A stretch of 64,000 nucleotides of DNA from Kiritimatiellia bacterium (lineage in GTDB: Bacteria; Verrucomicrobiota; Kiritimatiellia; UBA8416; JABMPJ01), in the NCBI GenBank assembly GCA_016783675.1, contig JADHWE010000003.1, positions 1 through 64,000 of the forward strand, written 5' to 3'. The notes under the pieces were generated by a model. That model had not been told where the DNA came from and did not search any database. It saw only the letters and a program-made list of their open reading frames with translations. Position 1 is the stretch's first letter, and every line of letters starts with the position of its first letter. Positions 121 through 19,840 of the stretch are shown in pieces. The position numbers and the translations under genes were made by a program.

Positions 121-1050
121 TCAACATTTGAACGTTATCAATCGGTTAAACAGGTCGCCCTGGCGGCGGTTGGTGGTTTGCATGCGCTGCTCAATCATAT
201 GGATGAAGCTGCCCTTCTTGAGGTGCCAGCGGGGGGCGACGAGGTCTTCTTCCGGCGTGTCGGTGTTGATGCGCAGGATCGCCATGCGGGGCGGCAGGCG
301 CTGGATGAAGCCGATCACCTCCTCGGCGTAGTCATCCTCATCCATTAACGGAAAAGGGCGGGCCTCGTATTCCTCGGCCAGGGCGGTGCTTCGGATGACG
401 TGCAGGTTGTGGATCTTGACGCCGTCGAGCGGAAGGTGGGCGAGCGTGGTGGCGGTCTGGGCGAAATGTTCCGGGGTTTCTCCGGGCAAGCCGAGAATGA
501 CATGGGCAATGACCCGGATGCCGCGATCGGTCAACGCGTCGATGGCCGCTCGGCTTTCAGTCCAGTGGTGGCTACGCCGAATGCGGTCGAGCGTGACGTC
601 GTGAATGGTCTGCACGCCCAGCTCCACGATCACGTCGACCTCCTGCTGGAATTCGGTGAGCAGGTTCAATGTTGATTCCGGCAGGCAGTCGGGGCGTGTG
701 CCGATGGTCAGCGATTCGAACGGATAGGCATCGAGCACGCGGCGGTATTCTTGCTCCTGTTCGGTGAAGTCGGCATGCGTACCGGTGAAGGCCTGGATGT
801 AGGCCATGAAATACTCTACGCCGTAGCGCTCGCGCGCGAAGTCGACACCCGCCGTGACCTGGGCCTCGATATCATCCTTGCCGGTGATCTGCACGCCGCG
901 TGCGCCGTCGCCGGGACAGAAGGTGCAGCCGCCGGAGCCGTCGTCGTCGCGATTGGGGCAGCCCCATCCCAGATCGATCGGCACGCGGTAGACCCGGTGC
1001 CCGTAGGTGTCGATCAGGTACTGTTTGTAGGTGTAATAGGGGGATTGCAC
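121..1050 (-). CDS. TIGR01212/YhcC-like radical SAM protein
   Basis: 309 aa ORF; N-terminus YKQYLIDTYGHRVYRVPIDLGWGCPNRD...GGCTFC with the CX(n)CxxC cluster typical of the YhcC family. Confidence 0.88.
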   Translation of the reverse strand: MQSPYYTYKQYLIDTYGHRVYRVPIDLGWGCPNRDDDGSGGCTFCPGDGARGVQITGKDDIEAQVTAGVDFARERYGVEYFMAYIQAFTGTHADFTEQEQEYRRVLDAYPFESLTIGTRPDCLPESTLNLLTEFQQEVDVIVELGVQTIHDVTLDRIRRSHHWTESRAAIDALTDRGIRVIAHVILGLPGETPEHFAQTATTLAHLPLDGVKIHNLHVIRSTALAEEYEARPFPLMDEDDYAEEVIGFIQRLPPRMAILRINTDTPEEDLVAPRWHLKKGSFIHMIEQRMQTTNRRQGDLFNRLITFKC

Positions 1051-1194
1051 GTCGCTGAACGGTATCGGCTACACATCGGAATGCAAAGGAGAATTGCTTT
1101 ACGGGAGTGCGCCATGGCGTTACTGTGGCGACCATTGGGGCCGCGCCGCAGGCTGGGGCTTGTGCCGGATGTCCCGCAAGAGGGGAGATATGTC

Positions 1195-2850
1195 ATGAGT
1201 GATGTCGCGTATTCTATCAGCCCGTCCGGTGAGCAGTTCGAGATTCCCGGGCCCGATGACTACAAGAAGGAGTTTGCCCGCCTGAAGCGGCTGGTCAAGA
1301 AACAGCGCGACCAAGGTCGTGAGATTGTTGTCGTAGTGGGCGTGGGCTTTGTGGGTGCTGTGATGGCCGCCGTAGTGGCCGACTCTACCGATAAAAAGGG
1401 TAAGCCGGGCAAGTTTGTGATCGGCATGCAGCGTCCCAGTACGCGCAGTTACTGGAAAATCCCCCTGCTGAACCGCGGCCTCGCGCCGGTGGAGTCGGAA
1501 GATCCCGAAGTGGATGTGCTGATCCAGCGCTGCGTCAACGAGAAGAAGACGCTCACGGCCACCTTCACCTACGATGCCCTGAAGCTGGCGGACGTGGTGG
1601 TGGTCGATGTGCAGTGCGACTATCTCAAGGAGGACCTCGGTGACTGTTGTTCAGGCTCGGCCGACATGGCGGCCCTGGAGGCCTCCATGGCCACGATCGC
1701 GGAAAACATTCCGCCCAAGGCGATGGTCCTGATCGAGACGACGGTGGCGCCCGGAACAACCGAGCAGATCGCCTACCCGATCATGAAGAAGATCTTCGAG
1801 AAGCGCGGCATCAGGTCCGACCCCGTCCTCGCGCACAGCTACGAGCGTGTCATGCCGGGGCGCAACTACGTCTCCTCCATTCGTGACTTCTGGCGTGTCT
1901 GCAGCGGGGTAAACGCCACGGCCCGCAAGCGCGTCGCCAAGTTTCTCAAGGACGTGCTCAACACGGAGGACTTCCCTCTGACCGTTCTCGATCGCCCGAT
2001 CGAGTCGGAGACGGCCAAGATCGTGGAGAATAGCTTCCGCGCTACGATCCTCGCCTTCCTGGACGAGTGGTCACTCTTTTCCGAACGCAACGGCGTCGAC
2101 CTTAAGAAGGTCATCGAAGCGGTCAAGGTGCGCCCGACACACTCGAACATGATCTTCCCCGGACCCGGCATTGGCGGCTACTGTCTCCCCAAGGATGGCG
2201 GCCTCGGGGTGTGGGCGTACAAGCACATCCATGGCTGGGAAGATGACATCTTCCAGATCACCCCGCTCGCGATCGACATCAACGACACGCGCGCGCTGCA
2301 CACCGGCACGCTCGTACGCGATGCGCTGCGCAACATGGGACAGCCTATCGCGGCGGCGGATATTCTGCTGATGGGGGCATCCTACCGCGAGGACGTGGGC
2401 GATACGCGCTACAGTGGGTCGGAGCTGATCGTCCGCAAGCTGACCGAGATGGGGGCGGATATCCGCGTGCATGATCCCTACGTGAAACACTGGTTCGAAT
2501 TCAAGAACCAGAGTGTCCAAGTGGAACATGACGGTGACTTCGCGCCGCACAGCAAAGCGGCCTTCTTCAATCGCCAGGCCCACCTGCAAGATCTCGAGAT
2601 GGAGCCCGACCTTTTCAAGGCCATGAAGGGGGTCAAGGCGATCATTCTCGGCGTCCGCCATGCGGAATATCTGGATCTCGATCCGGACAAGGTCATTAAA
2701 GCGGTCGGCAAGCCGTGCGCCATCATCGACTGCTTCTGCATTCTCAACGACGACCAGATCAGCCGCTACTTCGAGCTGGGTTGCGAAGTCAAAGGAATGG
2801 GCCGCGGCCACATCCAGCGGATCAAGGAGAAGGTTCGGAAGAAAGGCTGA
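1195..2850 (+). CDS. UDP-glucose/GDP-mannose dehydrogenase family protein
   Basis: In-frame ATG at 1195 (MSDVAYSISPSGEQ) inside ORF 751..2850; Rossmann motif VVGVGFVGAVMA; catalytic GPGIGGYCLPKD. Confidence 0.85.
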   Translation: MSDVAYSISPSGEQFEIPGPDDYKKEFARLKRLVKKQRDQGREIVVVVGVGFVGAVMAAVVADSTDKKGKPGKFVIGMQRPSTRSYWKIPLLNRGLAPVESEDPEVDVLIQRCVNEKKTLTATFTYDALKLADVVVVDVQCDYLKEDLGDCCSGSADMAALEASMATIAENIPPKAMVLIETTVAPGTTEQIAYPIMKKIFEKRGIRSDPVLAHSYERVMPGRNYVSSIRDFWRVCSGVNATARKRVAKFLKDVLNTEDFPLTVLDRPIESETAKIVENSFRATILAFLDEWSLFSERNGVDLKKVIEAVKVRPTHSNMIFPGPGIGGYCLPKDGGLGVWAYKHIHGWEDDIFQITPLAIDINDTRALHTGTLVRDALRNMGQPIAAADILLMGASYREDVGDTRYSGSELIVRKLTEMGADIRVHDPYVKHWFEFKNQSVQVEHDGDFAPHSKAAFFNRQAHLQDLEMEPDLFKAMKGVKAIILGVRHAEYLDLDPDKVIKAVGKPCAIIDCFCILNDDQISRYFELGCEVKGMGRGHIQRIKEKVRKKG

Positions 2851-2894
2851 CCTCGCCGATTGCGGTTTGCTCGCACGCTGGCAAACGGTAGGCT

Positions 2895-3911
2895 GTGTGG
2901 GTGACTGAAGCAGAAATACAGCCGATCGACTCGGCATTCACCTGGCGCGACCGCCTGCAATGGTGGCGTGTGCGATGGGGCATCGGGCGCATGCGGTTTG
3001 CCGTGTCGCCCGGCCTCTATGCGCTCAACGACCCCACCCCCGAATCGGATGTCTTCGTTACGGCCAACTACAAGATGAGTGTTGACCATGTGCGCCGCGC
3101 GCTCGTGGGGCGAAAAGCGTGGATCCTCGTGCTCGACACGCAGGGAATCAACGTGTGGTGCGCGGCAGGGAAGGGCACGTTTGGAACGGACGAACTGGTC
3201 GAGCGTGTGAGTGAAACTGGCCTGGCACAGCAGGTCAGTCACAACAAGCTCATCCTGCCTCAGCTCGGCGGAGTAGGGGTCGATGCGGGGGCCGTAGGCA
3301 ATCAGACCGGGCTCATGGTTCGCTACGGGCCGGTTCGTGCCACGGACCTGCCGGCATACCTTGATGCCGGGTACAAGGCCGACGACGCGATGCGTCGCGT
3401 CCGTTTCAACCTGGCCGATCGAGCCTTACTGGTACCGGTCGAGATCATCAATGCGGGAAAATCTATCCTGCCGGCGATGGCGATACTGTTTCTGCTCGCG
3501 GGACTTTCACAACGAGGCTTCTCCGTGATGACGATGCTGAGCCAGGGGCTGGCGGCGGTGCTGGCGCTGGGAGTGGCCTGGTTGGCGGGGACGGTGGCCG
3601 GACCATTGTTACTGCCTTGGCTGCCGGGGCGGATGCTTTCTATGAAGGGCGCCATGGCGGCGCTGGTGCTGATTGGACTGCTCTCGATACGGGTTCTGCC
3701 TGGTCTGACCGGGGCGCTGGATCTCGCGGCGTTCTGGCTGGTAGTTCCGGCGGTGGCTTCTTTCATTATGATGAATTTCACCGGCGCGACGCCCTACACC
3801 TCGCCGTCGGGCGTCCGCCTTGAAATGAAGCGATCTGTCCCGGTCCAGGTGGCTTGTACGGTGGTTGCCCTATTGCTCTGGTTGGCCCAACGTGTGGTGG
3901 AGGTCGTGTGA
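2895..3911 (+). CDS. hgcA: HgcA, corrinoid-dependent mercury methyltransferase
   Basis: 338 aa; soluble N-terminal domain with the cap-helix motif NVWCAAGKGTFGT (N-V-W-C-A-A-G-K), C-terminal polytopic membrane domain, HgcA-like NFTGATPYTSPSGVRLEMKRSVP segment; overlaps hgcB. GTG start; alternative GTG at 2901. Confidence 0.93.
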   Translation: MWVTEAEIQPIDSAFTWRDRLQWWRVRWGIGRMRFAVSPGLYALNDPTPESDVFVTANYKMSVDHVRRALVGRKAWILVLDTQGINVWCAAGKGTFGTDELVERVSETGLAQQVSHNKLILPQLGGVGVDAGAVGNQTGLMVRYGPVRATDLPAYLDAGYKADDAMRRVRFNLADRALLVPVEIINAGKSILPAMAILFLLAGLSQRGFSVMTMLSQGLAAVLALGVAWLAGTVAGPLLLPWLPGRMLSMKGAMAALVLIGLLSIRVLPGLTGALDLAAFWLVVPAVASFIMMNFTGATPYTSPSGVRLEMKRSVPVQVACTVVALLLWLAQRVVEVV

Positions 3912-4195
3912 TTCGCTACCTGGACAATGTGACGACGCTGGAGTTGGATGCCGACAAGTGTATTGGCTGCACGCGCTGCACACAGGTCTGTCCGCACGGC
4001 GTACTGCGTATGGAGGGCAAACTGGTCGAAATCGTGGATCGCGATGCCTGCATGGAGTGTGGTGCCTGCGCCACAAACTGTCCGACCGACGCCCTCACGG
4101 TTGACTCCGGCGTAGGGTGCGCCATCGCCATGATCGTGGGCGCCCTGCGGGGCACCGAACCCACCTGCGAATGTCGCGGCGGCACCTGTTGCTGA
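3908..4195 (+). CDS. hgcB: HgcB, 2[4Fe-4S] ferredoxin of mercury methylation
   Basis: 95 aa from GTG 3908 (4-nt overlap with hgcA stop); CIGCTRCTQVCP and CMECGACATNCP motifs, conserved GVGCA segment, C-terminal CECRGGTCC cysteines. Confidence 0.92.
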   Translation: MIRYLDNVTTLELDADKCIGCTRCTQVCPHGVLRMEGKLVEIVDRDACMECGACATNCPTDALTVDSGVGCAIAMIVGALRGTEPTCECRGGTCC

Positions 4196-4203
4196 GTAGA
4201 TTC

Positions 4204-5568
4204 CTACGCGTTGAGGTACATCTCAAAGTCGATGTTGCTCGGTCGGGCGCGGTACTGTTGACACTCTTCACGCTTGGATGCCAGGAAGTTGGTGTAGATG
4301 TGCGGTCCGAGCGCGTTCTGGATGACGGTGTCCTGCTCCAGGTGATCGAGTGCCTCCTCGAGTGAGCCCGGCAGTGTGGCGATAGCGCCGGCATCGTGAA
4401 AGAGGTCGCGCTCCGTGGCCTCGCCGGGGTCAAGCTGGCGTTGAATACCGTCCAGTCCGGCGGCCAGTGTCACGGCGAACACGAGGTAGGGGTTGCAGCT
4501 CGGATCCGGCGAGCGGTACTCGCAACGCGTGGCCCGCGGGTCGCCATGAGGAACTCGAATCAGGGCGGTCCGGTTCTTCCGCCCCCAGGCAATATTGACT
4601 GGCGCTTCCCAGCCCGGCACCAGGCGTTTGTAGCTGTTGCAGATCGGGTTGGTGATAGCCGTGATGGCGGGCGCGTGGGCGATGAGTCCGCCGATGAACC
4701 AAAGCGACAGATCTGAAAGGTCCTCTTTTGCGGGATCATAGAACAGGTTTGTCTTCTTCGGCTTCTGGCCGTTGCTGCCTTCGTACATCGACAGGTTCAG
4801 GTGGCAATGCATTCCGCTACCGTTCATTCCGAAGAACGGCTTGGGCATGAACGTGGCAACCATTTCGTTCCGGCTAGCGTAGTTCCAGATGATGTCTTTG
4901 AGCGTAACGGCCGCATCGGCGATCTCCAGCGCTTCGCCATAGCGGAAGTCGAATTCGAACTGCGAGGGCGCCACCTCGTGGTGATAGACCTCGTATTTGA
5001 TCCCCATGGTGTTCATCGCTTCCATGACTTCGGTCAGGAACTGCCGCATACTTGCCGTGGGCGCATCGAAATAGCCGAGGTGATCGATATGTTTGCTATC
5101 GCCATCGAGCACAAAGAACTCCAGCTCGGGAGCCACGTGGTATTCGAACGTGACGCCGCCGACAGGAATGCCGGCCTCTCCGTTGAGGGCATCCGGGATG
5201 GCGTCCAGCATGCGTCTGAGTGCGGAACGGGAATCCCCCTCGAATGGGGTGGAGGAACCGTCGTCGGTAGGTGTGTGGATATCGCAGATAACGCGGGAGA
5301 CATCGGGCGCCCAGGGCACGGCGCCAAACGTGTTCGGGTCGGGCATGATCAGAAGATCTGATTCCTCGACCGGCACGCCGTAGCCATCGATCGATGAGCC
5401 ATCCACCCCGTAGCCCTTGAGGTATTCCTTCTCATGCAGGAATTCATCAAACGATACGGTCTTGAACTTGATGTTGCCGAAGATATCGACGAACTGCAGG
5501 TCGACCGTCCGAATGCCCTGTTCCGCGGCTGCGGCCAGTGTGTCGGCGAAATGTCCATTCTTGCTCAT
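4204..5568 (-). CDS. glnA: Glutamine synthetase type I
   Basis: Start MSKNGHFADT inside ORF 4204..5595; GYGVDGSSIDGY, NGSGMHCHLNLS, NSYKRLVPGWEAPVNIAWGRKNRTALIR motifs. Confidence 0.93.
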   Translation of the reverse strand: MSKNGHFADTLAAAAEQGIRTVDLQFVDIFGNIKFKTVSFDEFLHEKEYLKGYGVDGSSIDGYGVPVEESDLLIMPDPNTFGAVPWAPDVSRVICDIHTPTDDGSSTPFEGDSRSALRRMLDAIPDALNGEAGIPVGGVTFEYHVAPELEFFVLDGDSKHIDHLGYFDAPTASMRQFLTEVMEAMNTMGIKYEVYHHEVAPSQFEFDFRYGEALEIADAAVTLKDIIWNYASRNEMVATFMPKPFFGMNGSGMHCHLNLSMYEGSNGQKPKKTNLFYDPAKEDLSDLSLWFIGGLIAHAPAITAITNPICNSYKRLVPGWEAPVNIAWGRKNRTALIRVPHGDPRATRCEYRSPDPSCNPYLVFAVTLAAGLDGIQRQLDPGEATERDLFHDAGAIATLPGSLEEALDHLEQDTVIQNALGPHIYTNFLASKREECQQYRARPSNIDFEMYLNA

Positions 5569-8945: not shown

Positions 8946-9141
8946 GTAAGTACTACTCCTCGCCCATCTCTCCCGCAAATTCGTAAACCAGGAATAGTGC
9001 CCTTTCTTCTGCAAGAAGGCAAGCGAGGGAATCGGGGAGAGGTGTTTCGACGGTGGCTGGAACGGCGGCAGAAAATGGCGAGTGGCGGGCGGCTGAGCGG
9101 TGTGCTATGAATGCGGGACGCATCCAATTATGGAGGAAAGC

Positions 9142-9804
9142 ATGCTCAAGAAACTGGCGATGAAACTGAAGATGATGGCGGAGGGGCAGGGGTCTTTTGA
9201 CCCGTCGACGATTGGTGATCCACTTGCGCTGCACACGGAATGGACGCCGGCACGGAGCGGCGGGGCCAGTTTTCGGACGCACAAGCTGGCGCCCGTGAGC
9301 ACGAACCGGCTGGAGTTTCGAGCGTCAGCGGGGGCCAAGCTCTTCTACCTGCTGTTTCTTCTCATTGGCGTCGGGGTGCTCGTGGGATTCACGTTTGCCG
9401 TGGTTGCCGGAAAAGGACCGGGTTTAGGACCGGGGTTGATCGTTCCGTTCCTCGTGGGCACCGTTTTCGCGTGCCTGGGCGGTGGAATGCTCTACTTCGG
9501 TACGGCGCCGATCGTGTTCGACGCGCGCAAGGGCTATTTCTGGAAGGGCAAGAAAGCGCCTGACGAAGTGTTCAGCAAGAGCTCCATCAAGCACCTCGCC
9601 AAGCTCGAAGAAATCCACGCCCTGCAGCTCATCTCCGAGTACTGCCGCAGCGACAAGAGCTCCTATTACAGCTACGAGTTGAATCTTGTCCTCAAAGATG
9701 GCACAAGGATCAACGTCGTCGACCACGGCAACCAGGCCAAGCTCCGCGAGGACGCTGCCACGCTTTCCGAGTTTCTGGACACGCCGATATGGGATGCTAT
9801 CTAG
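9142..9804 (+). CDS. Hypothetical membrane protein
   Basis: ATG 9142 preceded by GGAGGAAAG; two hydrophobic segments then a soluble domain. Confidence 0.65.
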   Translation: MLKKLAMKLKMMAEGQGSFDPSTIGDPLALHTEWTPARSGGASFRTHKLAPVSTNRLEFRASAGAKLFYLLFLLIGVGVLVGFTFAVVAGKGPGLGPGLIVPFLVGTVFACLGGGMLYFGTAPIVFDARKGYFWKGKKAPDEVFSKSSIKHLAKLEEIHALQLISEYCRSDKSSYYSYELNLVLKDGTRINVVDHGNQAKLREDAATLSEFLDTPIWDAI

Positions 9805-17706: not shown

Positions 17707-18267
17707 CTAATGCTTCCCGATCAACCGCAGAAACTCCGCCCGTGTAGCGGGGTCATTGTGGAAGCTGCCAAGTACGGTTGAGGTGGTCATCACGGAGTTC
17801 TGTTTGCCGACCCCGCGCATCATCATGCAGAGGTGCTGGCACTCCATAACCACGCCAACGCCTTCGGCTCCGACTGTGTTGGAAATGGCGCGTGCGATCT
17901 GCGCGGTCAGGCGTTCCTGGATCTGTACACGCTTGGCAAAAACGTCCGCAATGCGCGCCAGCTTGCTGACACCCAACACCTTATCTTCTGCGATGTAACC
18001 GATATGGCAGCGTCCGAAGAAGGGGAGCATGTGGTGTTCGCACAGGCTGTAGACCTCAATGTCGCGTGCGATGATCATGTTATTGGCCTCGGCCTCGAAC
18101 ACGGCATTGTTGATCACCTCATCCAGGTCCATTCGATAGCCTTCCGAGAGGTGGGACCACGCCTTGGCCACGCGTTCGGGCGTTCTGAGCAACCCTTCGC
18201 GTTGAGGGTCCTCCCCAATCTCAACCAGCAGTTCCTTGATCAGCTCGGCCACGCGTGCTTCGTTCAT
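17707..18267 (-). CDS. folE: GTP cyclohydrolase I
   Basis: EVYSLCEHHMLPFFGRCHIGYI, LGVSKLARI, MECQHLCMMMRGV. Confidence 0.95.
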   Translation of the reverse strand: MNEARVAELIKELLVEIGEDPQREGLLRTPERVAKAWSHLSEGYRMDLDEVINNAVFEAEANNMIIARDIEVYSLCEHHMLPFFGRCHIGYIAEDKVLGVSKLARIADVFAKRVQIQERLTAQIARAISNTVGAEGVGVVMECQHLCMMMRGVGKQNSVMTTSTVLGSFHNDPATRAEFLRLIGKH

Positions 18268-18629
18268 TTTGGCATGTCCTCTTGGGTTCGTGTGATGTCG
18301 ACTTCCACGGTACGGGCAAAACGAAGGGCGCCCGGCTTGGCCACCCTCACATTGGCCTGCCGCACCCGAGCATCCTTCAAACAGATCTCGGCAATACGCT
18401 CTGCCAGCCGTTCGACCAGCAGAAACGACGAGCCGTCCACCATGGCAACGACGTTCTTCTTGATCGCCTTGTAGTCGACGGTGTCGTCAATATCGTCCGT
18501 CTGCCCCGCCTTACGCAGGTCGGCGTGCAACGTGATGTTGATCACCACGTCCTGCTTATCGCGCCGCTCCTCGTCATAGATCCCGATCACACACCGCTGC
18601 AGCAGGTCGCGTATGTGAATCTTGTCCAA
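18264..18629 (-). CDS. folB: Dihydroneopterin aldolase
   Basis: DKIHIRDLLQRCVIGIYDEERRDKQDVVINITLHAD; SSFLLVERLAERIAEICL; start uncertain (TTG ~18629), ORF extends to 18707; 4-nt overlap with folE. Confidence 0.85.
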   Translation of the reverse strand: MDKIHIRDLLQRCVIGIYDEERRDKQDVVINITLHADLRKAGQTDDIDDTVDYKAIKKNVVAMVDGSSFLLVERLAERIAEICLKDARVRQANVRVAKPGALRFARTVEVDITRTQEDMPK

Positions 18630-18799
18630 GTGGTCTCCATTCGACTGCACGGTCGTTTCTCCCGTTTGACTTGGTCGCAGGGTAATCCATCTTACGGAAT
18701 AACGCAAATGCGGGGTTCAGGCGGAGTGTAATGCAGTTACAGGTGGATCAGGGTCGGGTCGTGTGATACATTTTGGCGTCGCTAAAAAAGAGGATTCGC

Positions 18800-19840
18800 A
18801 TGGCGGGCCCCACAAGCAAACCATCGGTATTGGGTATCTCGTTCGTGCCACTTGTCTGGCTGCCTGTGCTAACCTTCCTGACCTACCTCCTGTCCTATCT
18901 ATATCTTGCCGCCTACCACGGCAGGGCGAATCTGCTGAACGTGATCATTCATGCGGGCGGCACCTATACGTTGCTGGAGACAACCTTCTATGCGTCTCAT
19001 TTCCTTGGTCATGTGCCTGTTCATACCGTGGCGGCGCTTGTCTTTCTCGGAGCCTGCTACAGCCTGTTATCCCCGGGTGAGACGGTGTTGTGGGAGAGGC
19101 GTAGCGCGGCCATGGGAACCGGTATACTTGCGTTGCTCGGACTGTCATTTGTCGGGGCGCTGGTGCACTTCGGTTATGACGACACCGTCTCGTTCATCTT
19201 GCAGCGGAAACAGACGGTGACGCTGCATGTGCGTGGCGGATCATGGAACCTGCACATGCCCAGCACCATGCTATTGTTTGCGTGGGTGCCGGTCTATGTG
19301 GTTGCCGTGTCCTTGATTTGCGGACGTGGGACCGCATGGTCCACGAGGGGGTTGGCTCACTACCTGGCCGCGGTTCTCCTTTTCATCGGTGTCACGATCC
19401 TGGCGAACGGCCGGGAGACGATCAGCGCACTTGCGGTTGCCGTGTCCGATCCTCGCTACCAGGCGCACAGCGTGAGGGAGTTGGTCACGTTCAGCATGGT
19501 CTACTTCCCGATACCCCTGTTCTTCCTTCTGCGCCCGGGCGGAGAGCCGCGGGGGCGGTCGACCCGTTTGCTCGATCCGGCGAACACGTCGGTTCTGTGC
19601 CTGGCGGGCATCGTGGTTGTGGTGGGCGTGGCCTATCAGTGCGTGGTATCGTTGTCGGCAGGCATAGGGGCATTGGCGCACAAGCCTGACTTTGCTCACG
19701 AAGGCAGGCTCTCGGTGCTCTATCTCCTGGGCTCACATTTCTTTGAACATGTGCTGGACAGTATCTACTTCGGGCTGCTGGTTCTGTGGCTCTATGGACT
19801 CGGGGTGAATAGGGGTGGTGCTGCGCATGAGGACGCATAA
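18800..19840 (+). CDS. Polytopic integral membrane protein, unknown function
   Basis: ATG 18800 after AAAGAGG; multiple hydrophobic segments. Confidence 0.7.
   Translation: MAGPTSKPSVLGISFVPLVWLPVLTFLTYLLSYLYLAAYHGRANLLNVIIHAGGTYTLLETTFYASHFLGHVPVHTVAALVFLGACYSLLSPGETVLWERRSAAMGTGILALLGLSFVGALVHFGYDDTVSFILQRKQTVTLHVRGGSWNLHMPSTMLLFAWVPVYVVAVSLICGRGTAWSTRGLAHYLAAVLLFIGVTILANGRETISALAVAVSDPRYQAHSVRELVTFSMVYFPIPLFFLLRPGGEPRGRSTRLLDPANTSVLCLAGIVVVVGVAYQCVVSLSAGIGALAHKPDFAHEGRLSVLYLLGSHFFEHVLDSIYFGLLVLWLYGLGVNRGGAAHEDA

Follow-up and report, generated by a model that had tools for sequence, protein, structure and literature searches.

A probable functional hgcAB operon from an uncultured Kiritimatiellia bacterium and its apparent loss in a sister species

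HgcAB systems and the Kiritimatiellia pair

Two genes, hgcA and hgcB, are needed by microbes to turn mercury into methylmercury. The biochemically studied pair is that of Pseudodesulfovibrio mercurii (ND132), and both the mechanism and the role of each cysteine have been described (PMC7305189, PMC11588087). In Kiritimatiellia, hgcA has been reported from the Baltic Sea (PMC7536318), the Black Sea (PMC10469668) and Brownlee Reservoir, where the authors call Kiritimatiellae not confirmed methylators (PMC10504345); fermentation is the lifestyle ascribed to the published carriers, some of which have many glycoside hydrolases (PMC7536318, PMC10469668, PMC10504345). Kiritimatiellia hgcA is already known from several sites, and the pair analyzed here is a further example, an expected kind of find. 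It shares with those carriers the class and the occurrence of hgcA in metagenome data, a likeness drawn from their description, the order and family of our host being known by kinship codes only.

In this study, we analyzed the first 64,000 nucleotides of a Kiritimatiellia contig (JADHWE010000003.1), hereafter the window. The PVC-type lineage guessed in the initial annotation agrees with the nearest public relatives, which are named Kiritimatiellia MAGs; the genome comprises 2.6 Mb in 113 contigs and is 71.6% complete. From its sequence, the locus very probably constitutes a functional hgcAB operon, carried by an uncultured member of the Kiritimatiellia (PVC superphylum), with the following features:

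1195 to 2850, plus strand: nucleotide-sugar dehydrogenase (TIGR03026, 190.2 bits, cut-off 189.8; synteny)
2895 to 3911, plus strand: hgcA, GTG start, 338 aa, corrinoid-binding and five-helix membrane domains (NF040863; 86% identical to the same-genus orthologue)
2997 to 3368, plus strand: corrinoid-binding domain of HgcA (PF03599, 2.4e-10, residues 35-151; PDB 2h9a_A, 5.4e-13, residues 35-156)
3150 to 3173, plus strand: cap-helix motif NVWCAAGK (from sequence), in which Cys89, the predicted cobalt ligand, corresponds to Cys93 of ND132 (PMC7305189)
3411 to 3908, plus strand: HgcA membrane domain with its five hydrophobic stretches and NFTGATPYTSPSGV loop (hydropathy, conservation)
3908 to 4195, plus strand: hgcB, dicluster ferredoxin, 95 aa, GTG start, 4-nt overlap with hgcA (NF040864)
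3959 to 3994, plus strand: first CxxCxxCxxxCP 4Fe-4S motif, HgcB residues 18-29 (Cys positions)
4049 to 4084, plus strand: second CxxCxxCxxxCP 4Fe-4S motif, HgcB residues 48-59 (Cys positions)
4118 to 4120, plus strand: codon of HgcB Cys71, about 12 residues past the second cluster, corresponding to the essential Cys73 of ND132 (PMC7305189)
4166 to 4192, plus strand: C-terminal HgcB tail CECRGGTCC with the terminal pair Cys94/95 (from sequence)

The initial annotation had named the two frames hgcA and hgcB and proposed a search with the corresponding profiles; run here, it places both proteins above the cut-offs of the curated equivalog models, HgcA with 403.2 bits against 275 for NF040863 (E 8e-121, profile positions 2-324 of 325) and HgcB with 128.9 bits against 99 for NF040864 (E 5e-38, profile positions 1-93 of 93). 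The genes are adjacent on the same strand, the arrangement that marks an hgcAB system, and share GTGA at 3908-3911, the 4-nt overlap noticed from the start. The open reading frame list gives a longer alternative for HgcB, 113 aa with a TTG start upstream at 3854; the 95-aa form from 3908 is preferred on its end-to-end match to the HgcB model and its conservation in two relatives, L001 and L002. In HgcA, NFTGATPYTSPSGVRLEMKRSVP is found as first described, and the putative cobalt-ligand codon (3159-3161) encodes Cys89, within residues 86-93. This stretch fits the cap-helix pattern N(V/I)WC(A/S)(A/G)GK with its conserved Cys, and N86, V87, W88, C89, A91, G92, K93 and G94 are invariant across 15 aligned homologues. 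The polytopic C-terminal domain also stands, with five hydrophobic stretches in residues 184-338 and an alignment to homologues over the full length; the helix count comes from hydropathy. HgcB, which Pfam resolves into 4Fe-4S domains, has both clusters proposed earlier (Cys 18/21/24/28 and 48/51/54/58) and the terminal CECRGGTCC (Cys 87/89/94/95); model score, two motifs, extra conserved Cys and C-terminal Cys pair are thus found together. In the HgcB of G324 (L002:7010-7294) the tail reads CECRGGTCD, one of the two terminal cysteines being replaced. Selenocysteine has been proposed in some homologues (PMC11588087); read-through at short HgcB tails was considered and set aside, the tails inspected being Cys-rich and then closed by a stop.

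Compared with ND132, the pair displays the same domain order, cap-helix Cys and five-helix membrane domain in a paired arrangement, and the same dicluster ferredoxin with an extra Cys and a terminal Cys pair. It differs in coming from another phylum, in its 4-nt overlap, and in its surroundings: no regulator like those reported ahead of other hgcAB genes (PMC7438021) was found directly upstream of hgcA, where the nucleotide-sugar dehydrogenase (start MSDVAY, inferred from the translation) ends 44 nt before the gene. That dehydrogenase, a neighbour outside the methylation machinery, is syntenic in L001 and is preceded on the opposite strand by MnmL/YtqA; downstream and convergent lie glutamine synthetase, a pyruvate carboxylase B/oxaloacetate decarboxylase alpha-type protein and a sodium-pump decarboxylase beta subunit. 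No sigma-70-like promoter was found in 1000-4400, and no Rfam family matched anywhere in the window. Elsewhere in the window, open reading frames of more than 200 aa at 9100-9804, 17833-18474 and 18773-19840 have no Pfam match, and a segment at 121-148, with weak matches in G320, was rejected as a dispersed repeat, as it is single copy in the genus at up to two mismatches. The closest relative, L001 (JASLOA010000010.1, Kiritimatiellia bacterium Arabian11_MAG_24, G322), belongs to the same genus and keeps the same gene order from MnmL to oadB, with HgcA 86% and HgcB 88% identical; it is nonetheless a separate species, at about 82% DNA identity across the shared locus. L002, from another family of the order, has an HgcA 68% identical in an unrelated neighbourhood.

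Against the L001 orthologues, dN/dS is 0.08 (NG86) or 0.03 (YN00) for hgcA and 0.07 or 0.06 (same methods) for hgcB, approximate values, with synonymous sites near saturation (dS about 1 to 2.5). Since these ratios span 0.03-0.08 against the nearest relative, both proteins are under purifying selection, which argues for a working protein pair. All residues named as needed for activity (PMC7305189, PMC11588087) are present. We infer that the host produces methylmercury, with expression, cofactor loading and activity predicted likewise. In our model, which applies the established Pseudodesulfovibrio mechanism to this pair, HgcA would hold a cobalamin-type cofactor in the membrane, its cobalt ligated by Cys89 of the cap helix; the two 4Fe-4S clusters of HgcB would pass low-potential electrons to reduce the HgcA corrinoid; the reduced cobalt would then be methylated, a step for which SAM is the donor when the system is reconstituted; and the corrinoid would finally pass its methyl group to Hg(II), whose delivery or release Cys71 and the Cys94/95 tail of HgcB may assist.

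This true HgcAB complex might instead have been selected for methyl transfer to another substrate, with Hg methylation as a side activity, a reading that we consider unlikely although it keeps an appreciable share of probability. The pair is under purifying selection and has no mercury-linked neighbours, being surrounded by sugar-nucleotide, glutamine synthetase and decarboxylase genes; the remnant locus described below suggests that hgcAB is dispensable; and across five genomes from the genus no gene scores above the MerA cut-off. To our knowledge, HgcAB has been shown to act on no other substrate, and the residues conserved here are the ones on which Hg methylation depends in the work cited above. 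No gene passes the DsrA cut-off in these five genomes either, so there is no sign of a sulfate-reducing host or of mercury reduction; the genomes are incomplete, which makes absence weak evidence.

A remnant locus and the distribution of hgcA

Retaining the reading of a functional hgcAB operon in the window, we found what appears to be its loss in place in a sister species, GMC6.metabat2.87 (G321), whose contig JAOZSS010000123.1 (L003) carries intact MnmL and decarboxylase genes. Between them, L003:2998-3638 holds in-order remnants of the nucleotide-sugar dehydrogenase, eroded along with hgcAB, of hgcA (residues 285-316) and of hgcB (residues 64-89). The pieces are 78-87% identical to the window and keep their order and orientation between MnmL and oadA; five stretches of window sequence are missing (about 168, 667, 1314, 282 and 1443 bp), the hgcB tail carries a single-base frameshift, in-frame stops interrupt the remnant frames, and glutamine synthetase is missing at the locus. 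This apparent loss is recorded in one metagenome contig at 7.8x coverage, and an assembly artefact would be conceivable in a single contig of 7267 bp. We deem this improbable: the remnants are ordered and oriented between intact MnmL and oadA, with a frameshift and in-frame stops; five separate, ordered gaps are not the usual product of a mis-join; and no other hgcA or hgcB was found in the L003 genome. In the RpoB tree, the window's genome pairs with G322 and the L003 species is the sister of that pair (support 100/95); G319 and G320 fall outside. The simplest reading of decay in place is that the ancestor of the three species had hgcAB at this position and that one line is losing it. A limited literature search on hgcAB and pseudogenes returned no report of a broken hgcAB. 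In G319, both contigs flanking the expected site break off in a similar repeat between MnmL and oadA, which leaves the absence of hgcAB there unproved. These GC-rich ends (L038:3697-3740 and L065:1-60) are similar to each other and contain CGCCGAGCGAGGAA or a near copy, a sequence absent from the window.

Across the class, HgcA exceeds the cut-off in 26 of 346 Kiritimatiellia genomes, a patchy distribution, and hgcB adjoins nearly all of the hgcA genes found. Three genomes carry two copies each: G343 (L006, L073), G302 (L012, L074) and G009 (L021, L075); the copies of G343 and of G009 are each other's closest relatives, and the pair of G302 is deeply split. The HgcA proteins from the window's order fall into more than one clade, and forced monophyly is rejected (AU p 8e-88); in the RpoB tree the same genomes fall, together with family f42, into one supported set. 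Given this conflict between the trees, transfer, or old duplication followed by differential loss, must be involved in hgcA history as these sequences record it, which agrees with what has been proposed before (PMC7438021, PMC7573106). A similar HgcA is encoded in none of the plasmid records, so a plasmid vehicle was not identified.

Corrinoid and membrane domains of HgcA

The two domains of HgcA have different relatives. Pfam matches only the shared corrinoid domain PF03599, and in a sequence search against solved structures the large/gamma subunit of CFeSP is the sole clear relative (residues 35-156), HgcA carrying a homologue of its C-terminal domain. CFeSP gamma (PDB 2h9a) differs in lacking both the cap-helix Cys and the membrane domain, and works in the Wood-Ljungdahl pathway. 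The proposal that the hgcA product is itself a Wood-Ljungdahl paralog (CFeSP gamma/CdhD) or a protein of the HgcAB-like fusion family, without action on mercury, draws on this common corrinoid domain (PF03599, the CFeSP gamma chains in PDB, 191 bits to the HgcAB_like model NF043039), and is exceedingly improbable, indeed already refuted at the level of sequence families: the HgcA model scores 403 bits, against 64 for CFeSP gamma (PRK04165, cut-off 306) and 190.8 for HgcAB_like (below its cut-off of 285), the cap helix has the Cys, the membrane domain is present, hgcB is a separate gene where the fusion would be one chain, and a distinct CFeSP-like gene lies elsewhere in the same genome (C85). 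A CdhD/CFeSP paralog without the membrane domain was the outcome that the initial annotation had named as fatal to its claim, and these scores and the membrane domain rule it out. The C85 gene matches HgcA in the corrinoid domain alone (61.6 bits), the pattern expected of a CFeSP gamma.

The membrane domain of HgcA gave no match among solved structures by sequence; published work likewise states that no similarity between it and proteins of characterized structure can be detected (PMC7305189); a structure prediction of HgcA from three sequences reached a mean pLDDT of 39.7, too poor for use. Outside the window, a short protein that lacks the corrinoid domain and aligns to this membrane domain is encoded in six genomes of family f20:

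L067:1976-2533, plus strand: stand-alone membrane-domain protein
L070:1944-2498, minus strand: stand-alone membrane-domain protein
L068:1879-2439, plus strand: stand-alone membrane-domain protein
L071:1906-2424, minus strand: stand-alone membrane-domain protein
L069:507-980, plus strand: stand-alone membrane-domain protein
L072:1911-2561, minus strand: stand-alone membrane-domain protein

Five of the six lie directly upstream of a murG-like gene, that of L067 scoring 242 bits to TIGR01133, just below the cut-off of 250. No Pfam family matched the three stand-alone proteins tested. In a profile-profile comparison they match the HgcA membrane domain at 99.2% probability (E 7e-20), and a profile of the six, run over 346 genomes, matches only themselves and HgcA proteins, with the best HgcA scores in the window and G322 (E about 1e-21). 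In the membrane-domain tree the stand-alone proteins branch beside the window's clade (99/90), on a long branch; the NFTGxTxYTSPSGV loop is missing from them. One pair has a dN/dS of 0.16-0.23, consistent with a selected protein. It is plausible, if somewhat short of probable, that the HgcA membrane domain is an independent module, encoded alone in six Kiritimatiellia genomes and in five of them beside murG.

Implications for possible mercury methylation in Kiritimatiellia

If the membrane domain is such a module, an HgcA-type membrane domain has, or has gained, a role in the cell envelope that does not involve mercury. The stand-alone relatives may help in learning the role of the essential HgcA membrane domain, unmatched in solved structures. 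The L003 remnants offer a same-place example of trait loss and bear on whether the scattered occurrence of hgcAB reflects transfer or loss, signs of both being seen here. The window adds one more intact hgcAB to a PVC-group class without a confirmed methylator; Kiritimatiellia should therefore continue to be included in reference trees and methylmercury surveys.
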